From IMG/VR virus record IMGVR_UViG_3300009420_003164, positions 1 to 29,328 of that record: a stretch of 29,328 bases of DNA; one strand, written 5' to 3'. Within the stretch, counting starts at the first letter, position 1. Each line of letters opens with the position of its first letter. This DNA is from a virus. Below, piece after piece: positions 3,726-17,661 of the stretch. The notes under the pieces were generated by a model, which was not told where the DNA came from, searched no databases, and was given only the letters and a program-made list of their open reading frames with translations. The translations under genes and the position numbers were made by a program.

Positions 3726-4505
3726 ATGAAACAGTTAACACCCGAACAAATCCAAGATAATTGGATTAAACTTCGCGAACTACTAAGTATTACATTTAGT
3801 GGTGAACGATTGGAAAAGTTAAATCAAATGTATGATTACTTTGAAGATAGAATGTGTATAGCTCCTGCAAGTGGTAAAGAACATTATCACAATGCATTTG
3901 TAGGTGGTTATGTAGAGCATGTACTTCATGTAACTGATTTAGCTGTAAAAATAAATAAGTTGTGGAAAGAAAACGGAGCATCAATAAATTATACTGATGA
4001 AGAACTTGTTTTCGCAGCTATACATCATGACTTAGGTAAAGTTGGTGATTTAGAAAATGATTATTATGTACCAAACGAATCAGATTGGCATCGTAAGAAT
4101 CAAGGATTAATCTATAAACACGGCGAAGACCTTCAGTTCATGACAGTTACAGATAGAGCAATCTTTCTGTTAAATCACTTTGGAGTTAAGTATTCCGAGA
4201 AGGAATATATTGGTTTGAGATTAACCGATGGATTGTATGAAGAAGCAAATAAAAGTTATTATATTGGTTATCAACCATCAAGAAGTTTGAAATCAAATAT
4301 TGCTTATGTTCTTCATCAAGCAGATTCTATGGCAACACACATTGAATATGATGAGTGGAAACATGGAGAACAAAAGAGTAGAAAAGAAGTAAACAAAAAA
4401 GTCATCAATATCAAAAAGGCAGTTGCAACAGAAGTTGAAACTAAATTAACTTCTAATGATAATGCTAAGGATTTATTTGATGAGTTGTTTGGAGATACAA
4501 AATGA
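3726..4505 (+). CDS. HD-domain metal-dependent phosphohydrolase
   Basis: The four metal ligands of the HD superfamily are visible in order: H65 in GGYVEHVLHV, H101-D102 in AAIHHDLGKVGD, and D200 in VLHQADSMATH. A further conserved-looking His lies at 151 in LLNHFG. Such enzymes hydrolyse phosphomonoesters or phosphodiesters of nucleotides, often dNMPs, dNTPs or cyclic nucleotides, using two metals. The length (259 aa) suits a single-domain cytoplasmic enzyme. A good Shine-Dalgarno (GGAG) lies 7 bases before the ATG, and the end overlaps the next gene in an ATGA junction. The substrate is unknown. The position in an early/middle-type operon beside a PLP enzyme and a sigma factor would suit nucleotide-pool control. 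Confidence 0.85.
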   Translation: MKQLTPEQIQDNWIKLRELLSITFSGERLEKLNQMYDYFEDRMCIAPASGKEHYHNAFVGGYVEHVLHVTDLAVKINKLWKENGASINYTDEELVFAAIHHDLGKVGDLENDYYVPNESDWHRKNQGLIYKHGEDLQFMTVTDRAIFLLNHFGVKYSEKEYIGLRLTDGLYEEANKSYYIGYQPSRSLKSNIAYVLHQADSMATHIEYDEWKHGEQKSRKEVNKKVINIKKAVATEVETKLTSNDNAKDLFDELFGDTK

Positions 4506-8303: not shown

Positions 8304-8762
8304 ATGACTAAAAAAGACCTTGTAAAAATAATACAAGAAGTAGTACGAATTGAGGTTAAAAAACAGGTGAAACATATATTTATAACAGAGAAGAAATCTA
8401 CTTCTCTCAAATCACTTACACAGCCAGTTCGAAAGAAAAAAGTAGTAAAGAAAAGAGAACCAGTACAATATACTGAGAACCAAACTCTGAACGATATACT
8501 AAATGAAACGGTTGGTTTAAATAGTAAATCACAAGAAATGGATGAGTATCCAACAATGGGCGGTGGTGCATTTGATTCAACAAGAGCATCAGAATTATTA
8601 GGTTATGGTGGAGATAAACAAACACAACGAGAAGTTGGAGCAGTACAAACTATGAAAGAAGCTGGAGTTTCAGCTAATCAAGTTCCAGACCATGTACAAG
8701 ATGCTTTAACAAAGGATTATAGTAAGTTAATGAAACACAATAAGATGAAAAGTAGTAGATAA
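8304..8762 (+). CDS. Hypothetical virion-operon protein, basic N-terminus
   Basis: This 152-aa protein has a strongly basic N-terminal third (KKKVVKKREPV), a low-complexity middle (EYPTMGGGAFDSTRASELLGY) and a helical basic end (SKLMKHNKMKSSR). AAGGAG lies 7 bases before the ATG, and the stop overlaps the next start as TAATG. It looks largely disordered, as expected of a linker or assembly protein. The baseplate operon context suggests a virion-associated role. The family is not recognised. Confidence 0.7.
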   Translation: MTKKDLVKIIQEVVRIEVKKQVKHIFITEKKSTSLKSLTQPVRKKKVVKKREPVQYTENQTLNDILNETVGLNSKSQEMDEYPTMGGGAFDSTRASELLGYGGDKQTQREVGAVQTMKEAGVSANQVPDHVQDALTKDYSKLMKHNKMKSSR

Positions 8763-9211
8763 TGAACACACGAGATATAGACAATCCATCAGTAGCAGCA
8801 TTAAATGCTGATGAAGATTCATTTTTTGGACTAAAGTTTCCTTTAGGATACGGTGCAGGAACTGAGGGATTTTTTCCACGCTCAAGTACTATAAAAGAAC
8901 AGGCATCTTCTAATATTAAGAATTTACTTTTAACTCAAATAGGTGAGAGAGCAGGACAACCAACATTTGGATCAAATTTACCAAGAATAATATTTGAACC
9001 ATTAGAAATAGATGTACTTAAAGAATCTATTACTCAGACAATAGAAGAAGCTTTGGAACGATGGCTACCTTATATTACAGTACATAATGTTGGAACTTAT
9101 CAGGATAAGAATAATCCAAACACAGTAGTAGTTCAGTTAGAATTTACTGTAGATGTAGAAGATCCTGAGGCTCCAGAAACATTAACTTTTACTTTTAATA
9201 CAGGAGGATAG
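8762..9211 (+). CDS. 25: Baseplate wedge protein, gp25-like
   Basis: This 149-aa protein of the GPW/gp25 family is a small conserved baseplate component that in T4 helps start sheath assembly. Family features visible are the N-terminal FPLGYG segment with a following aromatic turn (EGFFPRSSTIKEQ), the core IGERAGQPTFGSNLPRIIFE (about residues 60-79), and the C-terminal beta part (VVVQLEFTVDVEDPEA). Length is close to the T4 protein (132 aa). It is encoded directly before the gp6-like gene, the usual order in contractile-tail systems, and shares a TAATG junction with the gene upstream. Confidence 0.92.
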   Translation: MNTRDIDNPSVAALNADEDSFFGLKFPLGYGAGTEGFFPRSSTIKEQASSNIKNLLLTQIGERAGQPTFGSNLPRIIFEPLEIDVLKESITQTIEEALERWLPYITVHNVGTYQDKNNPNTVVVQLEFTVDVEDPEAPETLTFTFNTGG

Positions 9212-9212
9212 A

Positions 9213-11177
9213 ATGTCTGTAGATTATAATACAAATAAAAAAGTAGTAAAAAAGGAAGTTCAATATTTAGGTAGAGAATTTTCTGATATACGAAGCAATT
9301 TAATGGAATTTGCAAAATCATATTTTCCAAGTGCATATAATGACTTTAATGAATCAAGTCCAGGTATGATGTTTATAGAGATGGCAGCATATGTAGGAGA
9401 TGTATTAGGATTTTATATTGATAATCAATATAGAGAATCTTTATTACATTCAGCAGAAGAAAAAAGAAATATATTTAAAATTGCACAATCATTTGGATAT
9501 GAACCAAAATTATCAAGTCCTGCTACAGCAATATGTGAATTTAGTGTAGAAGTCCCATCACTTAAAGTTGGTGATACATACCAACCAGATTTAGATTACG
9601 CTCCTATATTAAATGCCGATAGTGGATTTTCTTCTACAACTGGAGCAACATTTAGATTAATGGATGATATTAATTTTAAAACATCAAGTTCTTTAGATAA
9701 TATGGAAATACGTATTTCAAAATTTGAAACTACTATACCAACACATTATAAATTAATTAAAAACGGAATTTGTAAATCTGGTACCAAAGTTTCCCAGACA
9801 TTTTCTTTTGGTAGTGCTACTAAGTTTGATAAAATAATTTTAAGTAATAATAAAGTAATTGATATTATTTCAATAACAGATAGTAAAGAAGATAAATGGT
9901 ATGAAGTCCCATTTCTGGCTCAAGATACGATTTTTGCTTCAATGGAAAATTCTGATAACAATAGTCCTGATTTAACATCATATAAAAAGGAATCCCCTTT
10001 CTTATTAAAGTTAATTAAAACTGCTAAAAGATTTACAAAGTATGTCCGTAGTGATGGTAAAACAGAAATAAGATTTGGTTCAGGTATTAGTTCAAATCCC
10101 GATGAAGAATTAATTCCAAATCCAGATAATGTTGGTTCTTCTTTATCAATGGGTGTAAATAAATTAGATGAATCCTTTGACCCAAGTAACTTTTTGAAAA
10201 CAAAAACTTTTGGATTGGCACCAAGTAATACTACCTTAACTGTAACTTATAGTTATGGTGGTTCTATTAAAGATAATGTATTATCTCGAACACTTTCAAA
10301 TACAGATAATATTGTTTGGCAATTTGATTCAACAGGGTTGACAACTTCTGCCGTAGATGATATGAAAAAGAGTTTGAGTGTTGTAAATCCAGAACCAGCA
10401 ACAGGAGGTTCAAGTGGTGAATCTAATGAAACAGTTAGACAAAATGCATTAGCATATTTTAATTCACAAAATAGAGCAGTTACTAAAGAGGATTATATAA
10501 TTAGAGTTTATTCATTACCACAAAAGTATGGTAATATTGCTAAATGTTTTATCGTACAAGATGAACAATTAGAGGCAAATACTAAACTGATTGTTAAGAA
10601 TGGTAAAATTTCTAAAAACACATCTATAAGTACTTTACCTAATCCATTAGCATTAAATTTCTATACTCTGGGATATAATGCAAATCAGAATTTAGTAACA
10701 TTAAACCACGCTGTAAAAAATAATTTAAAAACATATCTATCACAATATAGAATTTTAACAGATGCAATTAATATTAAAGATGCTTATATTGTAAATATTA
10801 GTTGTAGATTCTCAATTCTTACTCAACGAGGGTTTAATAAAAATGAAGTATTGTTAAAGGCAATTAATTCAGTTAAGAACTACTTTGATATTAAGAAATG
10901 GCAAATTGGACAACCAATTATATTAAGTGATATTGCTTATGCAATTTCATTAGTGGATGGTGTGGCAAGTATCGTCCCACCAGAAGATGATAACCCACAA
11001 AAACAAATGGTTGTTCTTGAAAACCAATACGATACAGCAAGTGGTTATAACGGCCATGTATACGATTTACAATCAGCAACCAAAGATGGAATTATATACC
11101 CATCATTAGACCCAAGTATCTTTGAATTAAAATTCCCAAATACTGATATTGAGGGTAGAGTAGTAGGAGATGTATAA
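9213..11177 (+). CDS. 6: Baseplate wedge protein, gp6/gpJ-like
   Basis: This 654-aa protein resembles T4 gp6, which forms the inner ring of the baseplate wedge (660 aa in T4). The N-terminal region has the typical SPGMMFIEMAAYVGDVLGFY and a run ending SLLHSAEEKRNIFKIAQSFG (residues 50-110), as in the gpJ-like family. A middle region has ETVRQNALAYFNSQNRAVTKE (about 408-428), which resembles the gpJ-like core. The C-terminal quarter has QPIILSDIAYAISLVDGVAS, typical of the gp6 arm. GGAGGA stands just before the ATG. It follows gp25-like with 1 base between and shares a TAATG junction with the next gene. Confidence 0.92.
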   Translation: MSVDYNTNKKVVKKEVQYLGREFSDIRSNLMEFAKSYFPSAYNDFNESSPGMMFIEMAAYVGDVLGFYIDNQYRESLLHSAEEKRNIFKIAQSFGYEPKLSSPATAICEFSVEVPSLKVGDTYQPDLDYAPILNADSGFSSTTGATFRLMDDINFKTSSSLDNMEIRISKFETTIPTHYKLIKNGICKSGTKVSQTFSFGSATKFDKIILSNNKVIDIISITDSKEDKWYEVPFLAQDTIFASMENSDNNSPDLTSYKKESPFLLKLIKTAKRFTKYVRSDGKTEIRFGSGISSNPDEELIPNPDNVGSSLSMGVNKLDESFDPSNFLKTKTFGLAPSNTTLTVTYSYGGSIKDNVLSRTLSNTDNIVWQFDSTGLTTSAVDDMKKSLSVVNPEPATGGSSGESNETVRQNALAYFNSQNRAVTKEDYIIRVYSLPQKYGNIAKCFIVQDEQLEANTKLIVKNGKISKNTSISTLPNPLALNFYTLGYNANQNLVTLNHAVKNNLKTYLSQYRILTDAINIKDAYIVNISCRFSILTQRGFNKNEVLLKAINSVKNYFDIKKWQIGQPIILSDIAYAISLVDGVASIVPPEDDNPQKQMVVLENQYDTASGYNGHVYDLQSATKDGIIYPSLDPSIFELKFPNTDIEGRVVGDV

Positions 11178-12861: not shown

Positions 12862-15800
12862 ATGTTAGAATATGGATTAAATCAAAAAGATAAAGAACAA
12901 TTAGAGATTCCAGGATTCCTACCATCAGGATTTGGTAGGAGAGGTGAAGATTATATACATCTTTATGTTTATACACCAGGCGAAGAGGAAGATGTATTAG
13001 TTGGTTCTGAAAAGTTTCCAGCAGATATAAATGATGATGGCAGAGTTATGGATTTGGATATTGGTGGACATTTACGAGAAATGGGATTCACAGAGGGAAC
13101 TTATAAAGTTAAGTATTTGTTTTTAAAACGAGTAGCTGGGAAAGAACAAACTGTATTTGTAAATGAGTTAGGTTCGGTTCATGTTGGTAAAGTTCAGACA
13201 AAAGTTATTAATGGAGAAACGAAATATTACTCTACTAAAAAATTCGGTAAGGCTCAATCAAGACAAGAACTAAAAGAAATATTTCCAAAAGAATTAAAAT
13301 ATGTTGTAAAGAAAATATCACCAAATCGAACTGAAATAGAAGTTGATACTCAAAATATTCAAAATAGAATTTATCAAAGAAATTTAAGACAATTAAATTG
13401 GTGGATGACATACACACCTAAAAAAACTTCAACGGCTGGAAAAATACGATGGGATTTAACCGACCCTAATATATTAGTATTAACCCCACATGATAAAGAC
13501 CCAGGTTTTAGTGATGCAATGGTTGGTGGTAAAATAACAATTAAGGGAATGTATAGTATTACTGGACAACAGATTGCTGCCAATTTACCACCAATGCCAG
13601 ATATTAATATGATGACTCAACCAATATTTTCTGCAGAGTCTTTAAGTAATTTAGATTTATTTTCAGATATTACACAAGGTGTGGTACAACCAACGGTAGA
13701 TGAGCAGATTAATGCAAGAGTAGTAGATGAGGAAAGGATTAGTGGAGATGATAAGTTTTCAGGTGTATGTTTTACAGGGAATACAAAAGTAAAATTAAGT
13801 AATGGTAGAGAAGTTCCAATTAAGTATTTACAACGAGGAATGAAAGTCAAAACAGAAATTGGTTATGCAAAAGTATTAAAAGTAATTAAAGATGAACGAC
13901 CATATGGAGATACACTTTCTAAATTTAAGAATTTAACAACTACAGATAACCATCCAATGAAGTATCGTGGTAAATGGTATAAGGCTCACGAGATTGGTAA
14001 GTTATTTAGATCTAACCCACTTAATGTTTATAATTTAATTCTTGATAAACACCATACAATAGTTGCAAACAATGTCGTTTGTGCTACACTTGGTAAGTGG
14101 GAAACAATGAAGAAGTTTGAAATGTGGAGAGAAAAACAAATCACTATGTTGAGAACCGAGTCCTTTGATGAAGAAGATGATAACTTATCTCGCGATAATG
14201 GTACGACAATCAGTACACCTTACTTTAACGAACAAGAATTTATAGTCAATGAACCACCACCAAGTGTAACTCCAGACAAAATTAGAGGGGCAATAATTGA
14301 TAGTACAGTTTCAATTGAAGTGCCAACAATCCCAACACCACCACCTGCAATTGTAATACCAATTGATTATGTTGGGAGAATAACTGAGGTATTGGATAGT
14401 GATAGAATTAGAGTTGATATTTCATATGAACAAGGTGCTACTAATTTAGAGCATAGTGGTGAAGATAATTCACGAAAAATATTTGATGAAAGTTTTGTTA
14501 AGTTCAAAAAAGGACAAGTTGAGAGATTAAATACTTATATGGTTTGTAATGGTACTTATAATTTAATAACAAATTATAAACGAGGAGTTCACGCTGATGA
14601 ACTTGTTCATAAAACCCATTGGAATTCTGCAAGATTTGTAAAGTTATATGATAAATTACCTGATGAAATTGAGGAAATGGATTTAGTTTATTTCGTAGAA
14701 GAAAAAATGGAGCCGTATGAAGATACGATTACTTTAGTTCCATTTGTAGAAGAAGATCCTGAAATATTATTTTTAAGATTACCAGATTTTAATTCAGCTA
14801 ACAATCCAATAAATTTTCGAGGAACAAGCTTTAATAACTATACACAATTAATAGGAACAGATCCAGGTGTACAAGAAGATATTCAAAATAAATTAGTCTC
14901 GCAGAGTTTACTTGATACACAAGTCAATGTTGATTATACAAGAAGAACCGATTATTTAGGAAGTGATGTAACTGATTATGGATTTGCTAATCATATTCAC
15001 TTTGGTAGTGCAGAAAAAAGAATTGATAATTTTAAAAAGAAATTAGAATTAATTGAATTATATGTTTCATCAAGTGATTCATTCTCAAGGGTAACGAGTT
15101 CAGCAGAAACTATCGGTGAGTTTAATGCTAAAAAACGAAGAGTGGTTAATTCATTTGATCCATTTGAACATTATATGTATTTTGAATCATCTTCATATGC
15201 TTCAAGTTCGGTAGGAGAATACTACTCAGCATCTTGGCCAAAAGAAAATTCAACTTCACCATATACATTAGTTCACACGAGTGGTTCAGATGCTACAACT
15301 TGGATTACATCGTGGAAAGATTATGCAAAAGATTTTGATAGAAACAATCGTGATAGGTTAGTAAATAATTTACCACTTCATGTAGCAAGTGATTCTCAAA
15401 ACAATCCATTCTTAGATTTTATGGATATGGCAGGACAACAATTTGATGAGATATATGTTTATCTAAAACATTTCACAGATATGAATGAACGAAGTAATAA
15501 ACTATCAGAGGGTATTTCAAAAGATATTGTCCGTGAAGTTGCAAAAACTATGGGGTGGGAAGTAGTTCAGGGTAATGATTTAATGATTCTTCCAGAATAT
15601 TTGTTAGGTAAACAAGCAGATGGAACTGCTAAATATGAATCACCACAGGAACAAATAACCGAAGAAATATGGAAACGACTTTTATCAAACATGCCATTCT
15701 TTATGAAAACTAAAGGTACTCAAAGAGCAATGAAAGGGTTGTTGAATTGTTATGGTATTCCAAGTTCCATATTGAGAATCCGTGAGTATGGTGGTCCTGA

Positions 15801-17661
15801 TAAAGGAACACGAGTTAGTCATGAGATAAAAAGAAAGTTTACTTATGCATTAGATTTTAAGTCTTCAGAATATGTTGGAGTGGAATGGAAAAATGATGGT
15901 ACGAGTGGAATAAAACCCGAAACAGTTGAGCTTAGATTTAGAAGTCCTGAATCAAAAGACCAAGTTTTATTGAATCAAGGAACTGATTGGGGAATATTAT
16001 TAAAAGATAATGGAGCAACTGATGATTATGGTTATTTAGAATTTGCAATTAGTGGTAGTTCTGTTGAAACAGTAAGTTCTTCTTTATTACCATTTTATAA
16101 TGATGATATGTGGAGTGTTATGTTGACAAGAAAATTAGCAACTGGTGTTGATTTAACTGCAGATACAACTACACAAAATATAAAATATGAATTAACAACA
16201 AAACAATATGATTCAAGTAGAGAAGTAGTATTGTTTGCAAGTAGTCAAAGTTTAACAACAAGTACTGCAACTACAAATACTAAATTTTCTGCAGATGGGG
16301 AAGTAAGTATTGGTGGTAATGGAACAGGTTTTTATGGTACACAACTAAGTGGTTCTGTAATGGAATTTAGATTGTGGAGTGAACCTTTATCTCAGAGTGT
16401 ATTTGAGAATCATGTAATGGCACCAAAATCATATAATGGAAATACTACCGAATCTTTCTTTGATAATTTGATACATAGAACACAATTGAATGATAATATA
16501 ACATTACATGCAACTTCGAGTTTTACTGATAATAGTTTTTCTAACACATATAATGCAACTGGTAGTGCTAAAAGTTTTGTTGGGAATCAATTTAGAAGTA
16601 TAGTTGACCAAGAAAAATTAAGAGTTCCAAACATTGGACCAAATAGAAGAAATGCAACCAAGATACGATTAGAGGATAATACTATAATTGGACCATTATC
16701 ATCTAATGTTAGAAAAGAAAAATCATCACAAGATTTTGCACCTATAGATAGTAATAAACTCGGAGTATTCTTTTCACCTACAGATGTAGTGAATGAAGAT
16801 ATAATGTATTCCATAGCGGATTTTAATTTTGATAATTTGGTTGGAGACCCAAGAGATGTTTATGAAGATAGTTATCGTGGATTAGAATTACAACAAAGAA
16901 AGTATTGGAAAAAATATTCACAAACAAATAACTTTTGGGATTATTTGAGAATCATAGATTATTACGATAGTGGTATTTGGCAACAACTTAGAAGTTTATC
17001 ACCTGCAAGAGCAAACACAACTCTTGGAGTTTTGATTGAACCAAACATATTAGAACGAAGTAAAGTTGTAGTTGGTAAACCACCATCATTTGATAATCAA
17101 TATTTTGAAAATGCAGGACACTTTGATCATGGAATAGATATGACTAATTATATAAGTGGTTCTGATGATAGGATGATGATTCTAACTGGCGAGTTTCCAA
17201 ACTATAATGGAACTATAAATATACACAATAATGAAAGTGGTTCACTTGGAACATTAGCAATGCCATCATTGGTGAGATTGAGTGAAATAGACCCGAGAAC
17301 AGAATTTGGTAATACATATGCAACTGCTAGTGTTACACAAGGTGGAATATCATCTACATTTACAGAAACACTACAACCATATATTAGTTCATCAAGAATA
17401 TCAGAACACAATGAAATACGATATAAGAATTATACGAGTTCATTAGACGCATATACCGATAATCCATTTAGTTCATCATTTGAACCAGCTGAATATCAGA
17501 GTATGGCATATGACTCAAAGCTTTTTAGACTTTTTTATAAAGGTCTATTATTAACAAAGAAAAATACAATCGATGGTAAAGACCCCGTTGAGATAACTAT
17601 AACATCACCAACAAAACTTGTAACACAAGAACCAGGTGATTCTAAACTAAAAGTTGAATAA
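12862..17661 (+). CDS. Giant baseplate/tail protein with embedded Hint domain and LamG-like domain
   Basis: This 1599-aa structural protein is the largest in the window. In order: an N-terminal beta region (1-115), a second beta region to about 300, a Hint (hedgehog/intein) domain at 303-411 (annotated separately), an acidic linker with a Pro-rich stretch, a helical baseplate-type region, and MPFFMKTKGTQRAMKGLLN followed by YGIPSSILRIREYGG (about 945-980). That last signature recurs in large baseplate proteins of marine and Bacteroidetes phages. A LamG/concanavalin-like domain follows (about 988-1185, ending SGSVMEFRLWSEPLS), and then a long C-terminal region rich in Asn, Ser and Tyr. Position matches T4 gp7. 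LamG domains bind glycans, so receptor contact is plausible. Autocleavage at C303 would split it into about 302 and 1297 residues. Confidence 0.8.
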   Translation: MLEYGLNQKDKEQLEIPGFLPSGFGRRGEDYIHLYVYTPGEEEDVLVGSEKFPADINDDGRVMDLDIGGHLREMGFTEGTYKVKYLFLKRVAGKEQTVFVNELGSVHVGKVQTKVINGETKYYSTKKFGKAQSRQELKEIFPKELKYVVKKISPNRTEIEVDTQNIQNRIYQRNLRQLNWWMTYTPKKTSTAGKIRWDLTDPNILVLTPHDKDPGFSDAMVGGKITIKGMYSITGQQIAANLPPMPDINMMTQPIFSAESLSNLDLFSDITQGVVQPTVDEQINARVVDEERISGDDKFSGVCFTGNTKVKLSNGREVPIKYLQRGMKVKTEIGYAKVLKVIKDERPYGDTLSKFKNLTTTDNHPMKYRGKWYKAHEIGKLFRSNPLNVYNLILDKHHTIVANNVVCATLGKWETMKKFEMWREKQITMLRTESFDEEDDNLSRDNGTTISTPYFNEQEFIVNEPPPSVTPDKIRGAIIDSTVSIEVPTIPTPPPAIVIPIDYVGRITEVLDSDRIRVDISYEQGATNLEHSGEDNSRKIFDESFVKFKKGQVERLNTYMVCNGTYNLITNYKRGVHADELVHKTHWNSARFVKLYDKLPDEIEEMDLVYFVEEKMEPYEDTITLVPFVEEDPEILFLRLPDFNSANNPINFRGTSFNNYTQLIGTDPGVQEDIQNKLVSQSLLDTQVNVDYTRRTDYLGSDVTDYGFANHIHFGSAEKRIDNFKKKLELIELYVSSSDSFSRVTSSAETIGEFNAKKRRVVNSFDPFEHYMYFESSSYASSSVGEYYSASWPKENSTSPYTLVHTSGSDATTWITSWKDYAKDFDRNNRDRLVNNLPLHVASDSQNNPFLDFMDMAGQQFDEIYVYLKHFTDMNERSNKLSEGISKDIVREVAKTMGWEVVQGNDLMILPEYLLGKQADGTAKYESPQEQITEEIWKRLLSNMPFFMKTKGTQRAMKGLLNCYGIPSSILRIREYGGPDKGTRVSHEIKRKFTYALDFKSSEYVGVEWKNDGTSGIKPETVELRFRSPESKDQVLLNQGTDWGILLKDNGATDDYGYLEFAISGSSVETVSSSLLPFYNDDMWSVMLTRKLATGVDLTADTTTQNIKYELTTKQYDSSREVVLFASSQSLTTSTATTNTKFSADGEVSIGGNGTGFYGTQLSGSVMEFRLWSEPLSQSVFENHVMAPKSYNGNTTESFFDNLIHRTQLNDNITLHATSSFTDNSFSNTYNATGSAKSFVGNQFRSIVDQEKLRVPNIGPNRRNATKIRLEDNTIIGPLSSNVRKEKSSQDFAPIDSNKLGVFFSPTDVVNEDIMYSIADFNFDNLVGDPRDVYEDSYRGLELQQRKYWKKYSQTNNFWDYLRIIDYYDSGIWQQLRSLSPARANTTLGVLIEPNILERSKVVVGKPPSFDNQYFENAGHFDHGIDMTNYISGSDDRMMILTGEFPNYNGTINIHNNESGSLGTLAMPSLVRLSEIDPRTEFGNTYATASVTQGGISSTFTETLQPYISSSRISEHNEIRYKNYTSSLDAYTDNPFSSSFEPAEYQSMAYDSKLFRLFYKGLLLTKKNTIDGKDPVEITITSPTKLVTQEPGDSKLKVE
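13768..14094 (+). other. Hint (hedgehog/intein-type) domain inside the giant baseplate protein
   Basis: Residues 303-411 carry intein-family blocks. Block A is CFTGNTKVKLSNGREVPIKY with the nucleophile C303. Block B is TTDNHPM with T361 and H364 (the TxxH motif). Block F is VYNLILDKHHTIVANN. The usual block G end (His-Asn followed by Cys, Ser or Thr) is replaced by VVCATLG, as in Vint and other non-splicing Hint domains. There is no homing-endonuclease insert. The N-terminal active residues look intact and the C-terminal ones are missing. This predicts an N-S acyl shift at V302/C303 with cleavage or transfer to a nucleophile, and no protein splicing. Confidence 0.85.

Follow-up and report, generated by a model that had tools for sequence, protein, structure and literature searches.

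What does a hedgehog/intein (Hint) domain do in the middle of a phage structural protein when the residues needed for splicing are missing from it? The question is raised by an ORF of 1599 amino acids (positions 12862-17661) from an uncultured marine phage (IMGVR_UViG_3300009420_003164); the whole stretch of this record that was analysed, 29,328 nucleotides, is referred to here as the window. A gp25-like gene (8762-9211) and a gp6/Baseplate_J-like gene (9213-11177) lie upstream of the ORF, which places it in a baseplate gene cluster. An earlier note, made from the sequence alone, described the product as a baseplate protein of a T4-like phage. The first description holds for the genomic context, although no part of the protein other than the Hint domain is assigned to a family; the second fits the neighbouring gp25/gp6-type genes, but no isolated T4-like phage matches the protein over its length. 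Attempts to identify the host protein gave no more than chance-level matches for its N part, and no sequence match in PHROG or PDB for its C part. The structure model of the C part is of low confidence (pLDDT 52.9) and has LamG-like matches. The sole viral match to the C part was weak, to a cyanophage 'baseplate wedge initiator', and we do not claim a gp7 identity. Near the tail cluster, the window also carries a PLP-dependent threonine dehydratase-like gene and an HD-domain phosphohydrolase-like gene (1798-2565 and 3726-4505).

Homologues of the protein fall into three classes: fused with Vint, a family of Hint domains (class A), encoded by two genes without Vint (class B, the split clade), and fused without Vint (class C). 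Residue statistics refer to 44 distinct Hint copies. The features of the protein are as follows.

12862..17661, + strand: host protein of the Hint domain, 1599 aa, downstream of the gp25- and gp6-like genes
12862..13566, + strand: N part, aa 1-235, kept in all classes and a gene of its own in the split clade
13567..13767, + strand: variable linker, aa 236-302, of which the final six residues, D-x-[YF]-x-[GS]-V, are kept up to the cut site
13765..13770, + strand: predicted scissile bond V302/C303 (Val at -1 in 41/44 copies, Cys at +1 in 44/44)
13768..14094, + strand: Vint-type Hint domain, aa 303-411, from Pfam Vint, structure model and fold matches
13942..13953, + strand: block B TxxH, T361-H364, both residues invariant (44/44)
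14026..14073, + strand: block F VYNLILDKHHTIVANN, aa 389-404, with H398 invariant
14074..14094, + strand: block G position VVCATLG, aa 405-411, without His-Asn and with Ala408 invariant
14095..14166, + strand: conserved helix after the Hint, aa 412-435, with K412, W413 and F419 invariant; possibly an accessory region
14167..14361, + strand: variable linker, aa 436-500
14362..17658, + strand: C part, aa 501-1599, kept in all classes and containing a LamG-like jellyroll region

A profile search of the protein, which the earlier note had suggested as a check on its Hint call, matched Pfam Vint (PF14623) at aa 302-411 (E 2e-18, 67.2 bits), its scores of 67.2 and 72.8 bits standing against a curated cut-off of 27 bits; a search of the record found the same family again (E 1.1e-21). 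The last third of the Vint profile (positions 115-166) is unmatched in the window, which aligns with positions 1-114 only; L018 and L021 match positions 1-152 and 1-135. An AlphaFold2 model of aa 303-442, built from 21 sequences, has a mean pLDDT of 90.6 and consists of a mostly beta, Hint-like body followed by one helix. The best structural match of this model is the Vint domain of Tetrahymena thermophila (8r2c; Z 15.5, 121 residues, rmsd 3.0), and further matches include a bacterial intein-like (BIL) domain (Z 15.2), inteins, and hedgehog (1at0, Z 13.8). Tetrahymena BIL2 and Vint lead the ranking obtained with Foldseek and VIA-align, with inteins and hedgehog next. The Pfam match, the model and the fold ranking together establish that the Hint call was right and that the precise family is Vint; the domain in the 1599-aa protein is real and no chance match. 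Its landmarks had also been placed correctly, with Cys303 at 13768, T361-x-x-H364, VYNLILDKHHTIVANN at aa 389-404, and VVCATLG running to aa 411 at 14094. Profile searches for a VWA domain gave no match in the 1599-aa protein or in the N parts.

C303, T361, H364, D395, and H398 (Cys1, Thr59, His62, Asp93, and His96 in domain numbering) are invariant in all 44 copies. At the other end of the domain, position 105 is Ser, Cys or Ala, position 106 is Ala in every copy, and position 107 is Thr or Ser. The intein-type end, His-Asn followed by Cys, Ser or Thr, is absent from all 44 distinct copies, with Ala at the Asn position, in agreement with the earlier observation that splicing residues are missing. 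The C-terminal His-Asn that characterises type A BIL domains was likewise found in none of the 44. The six residues ahead of Cys303 are partly conserved, unlike the linker preceding them. In the most divergent class A copy (L143:6173-10879), Thr replaces Val ahead of the Hint Cys.

In class B (20 representatives) the gene is split in this same linker, often with an overlapping TAATG. The predicted N chain of class A has a median length of 302 aa (26 genes, L005 being left out; range 268-313), and the stand-alone N gene of class B encodes a median of 297 aa (20 genes, 287-318). The coincidence of predicted cut site and gene split points to self-cleavage at V302/C303. Between the N and C genes, two class B loci contain an unrelated ORF that is nucleotidyltransferase-like by motif (L034:4581-5036 and L043:6726-7193), and three contain a Pro/Lys-rich ORF of 280-316 aa (L040:6919-7755, L046:6072-7019, and L049:6855-7721), which may be the linker turned into a third gene. 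In another homologue (L003:3804-3873), a frameshift shortly before the Hint separates the N part from the Hint and C part, and is either a sequencing error or a real split. Class C comprises C1 (L032, L033, and L056) and C2 (L059-L061, L063, L066-L068, and L080). No Hint remnants were found in the split or the Hint-less fused relatives. In the C-part trees, class A forms two groups, one of them sister to class B plus part of class C, and the N-part tree has broadly the same shape. Loss of the Hint probably occurred on the lineages leading to B and C2, although the long outgroup rows leave the root of these trees uncertain. Since both clades of class C are fused and carry no Hint, cleavage is not universal; some phages (class C) can make do with the two parts in a single chain, which counts against a cleavage reading. 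The N parts of class C lie on long branches in the N-part tree, so the N part may have changed its role there.

We consider it likely that the baseplate protein is cut a single time, at V302/C303, by its resident and active Vint-type Hint, which stays on the C chain. Cys303 would attack the preceding peptide bond with the help of T361 and H364, and this N-S acyl shift would produce a thioester with Val302 that is then released by water or another small nucleophile. Hydrolysis is the likely end because there is no downstream nucleophile and no Asn. The C-side bond would stay uncut, as forming a succinimide takes an Asn and this position is Ala in every copy. The predicted products are an N chain of about 302 aa (1-302) and a C chain of about 1297 aa (303-1599) that starts with the Hint. 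One translation product would in this way give equal amounts of two structural proteins that relatives encode by two genes; since the class B parts are separate chains, the class A Vint would yield the same two chains after translation. Within the superfamily, hedgehog uses the first N-S acyl shift only, and BIL domains mostly cleave (PMC7664689).

Alternatively, the Hint may be a structural module that no longer cuts and that the baseplate retains for its fold. Cleavage, like its nucleophile, its timing, and its role in baseplate assembly, is something that we infer, and fused relatives without a Hint do exist. We nevertheless think a purely structural role unlikely, given that all catalytic residues are kept, as is the residue before the cut in 41 of the 44 copies, despite sequence differences of up to about half, and that the gene is split at the same place in relatives.

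The thioester could also be resolved by transfer, with the N chain becoming joined by its C-terminal Val302 to a different component of the virion, at an amine or hydroxyl there, in the way that hedgehog is joined to cholesterol. As in hedgehog, the Hint lacks everything past the first step, and the conserved helix that follows it takes the position occupied by the adduct-recognition region in hedgehog and Vint proteins. However, the N protein of the split clade has an ordinary stop codon and a free carboxyl end, so that a linked N chain is not required there, and no candidate acceptor is visible. The split clade manages with an N chain whose carboxyl end is free, so there is no need for transfer or cross-linking, which we regard as quite improbable. 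Autoprocessing at V302/C303 without splicing, as the earlier note had predicted, is thus the best reading, backed by relatives that are split at the same place, whereas its suggestion of transfer or cross-linking to another molecule finds no support. There is only a slim chance that the Vint hands the thioester-linked N chain to a specific acceptor within the baseplate as it grows, for a covalent cross-link or a timed release in wedge assembly.

Self-cleavage as proposed here involves a domain that is both active and resident. Conservation in the protein is highest in the Hint, with a mean major-residue fraction of 0.78 (N part 0.62, C part 0.72, linkers 0.34 and 0.36), and the linkers that flank it are nearly unalignable. 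It is under purifying selection, with dN/dS of 0.02-0.45 in ten pairs (all but one <=0.26) versus about 0.25-1.5 for the linkers. Divergence of the Hint and divergence of the host protein go together (rho 0.78; none of 2000 permutations reached this value), and there are almost no indels. Judged from these alignments, high conservation, low dN/dS, and divergence that follows the host protein indicate that selection maintains the Hint, in the simplest view for its chemistry, and that it is no dying intein.

A profile-guided IMG/VR scan returned, among the matches listed, this protein and one unlike Hint, and a scan of genomes added a single bacterial MAG contig, which carries the same phage cluster; both scans rely on short peptide patterns, with which distant carriers could be missed. 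A tblastn search for the Hint gave no match in isolated phages. Seven records of the clade contain one Vint each, and no second Vint was found elsewhere in the larger records of the clade. The phylum of the MAG had one further Vint match among 298 other genomes. Every close Hint relative among the matches listed occupies this site of this protein, and the domain, of about 110 aa, gave no sign of mobility or of a homing endonuclease; it therefore looks resident rather than mobile. The unlike Hint lies in a tape-measure-like protein of another phage (L152:2920-7593) and ends in His-Asn-Ala, with which cleavage rather than ordinary splicing is possible; it is closer to ordinary inteins and was rejected as the same kind of Hint. 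A degenerate, functionless intein left from an invasion would fit the missing splice residues and the lack of an endonuclease, but is extremely unlikely in view of the strong purifying selection, the near absence of indels, the divergence in step with the host protein, and the lack, among the matches listed, of close copies at other sites.

Vint has been described in VWA proteins of protists and fungi, in an account that does not mention phages (PMC2362128). The phage domain resembles those of the VWA-Vint proteins (PF14623, 8r2c) in sequence family (over the cut-off), in best structural match, in its Cys1 and TxxH, and in having no intein-type C end. It differs in being without VWA or Vwaint and internal to a structural protein, whereas theirs is part of an intracellular eukaryotic VWA protein. 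With the hedgehog Hog domain (1at0) it shares the fold and the expected use of the first acyl-shift step only, with release of the N-terminal product; unlike Hog, it belongs to a different sequence family, is followed by about 1190 aa of structural protein, and shows no evidence of a sterol or other adduct. BIL domains (2lwy, 6y75) share the fold and the expected outcome, cleavage rather than splicing, but 6y75 has a C-end Asn143 (mutated in the crystal) where the phage Hint always has Ala. The S74 chaperone autopeptidase of phage tail fibres and tailspikes is likewise a self-cutting domain in phage tail proteins, but its Ser/Lys mechanism is unrelated, and it cuts itself free and acts as a chaperone in folding (PMC7824862). 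In the open-access literature searched, we found no account of Vint in a phage, nor any of phage tails maturing by a step of the Hint type. This is a known domain in a new host, with a probable new use.

A 110-aa Vint that is expected to cut on its N side only is a possible tool for protein purification. If cleavage is confirmed, a hedgehog/intein-type domain would be a resident maturation enzyme of a phage tail and not a selfish element. One family would then allow three solutions to be compared, namely one chain, two genes, and one gene with a self-cutter, and the reason why Hint domains are kept outside inteins would therefore become directly testable.
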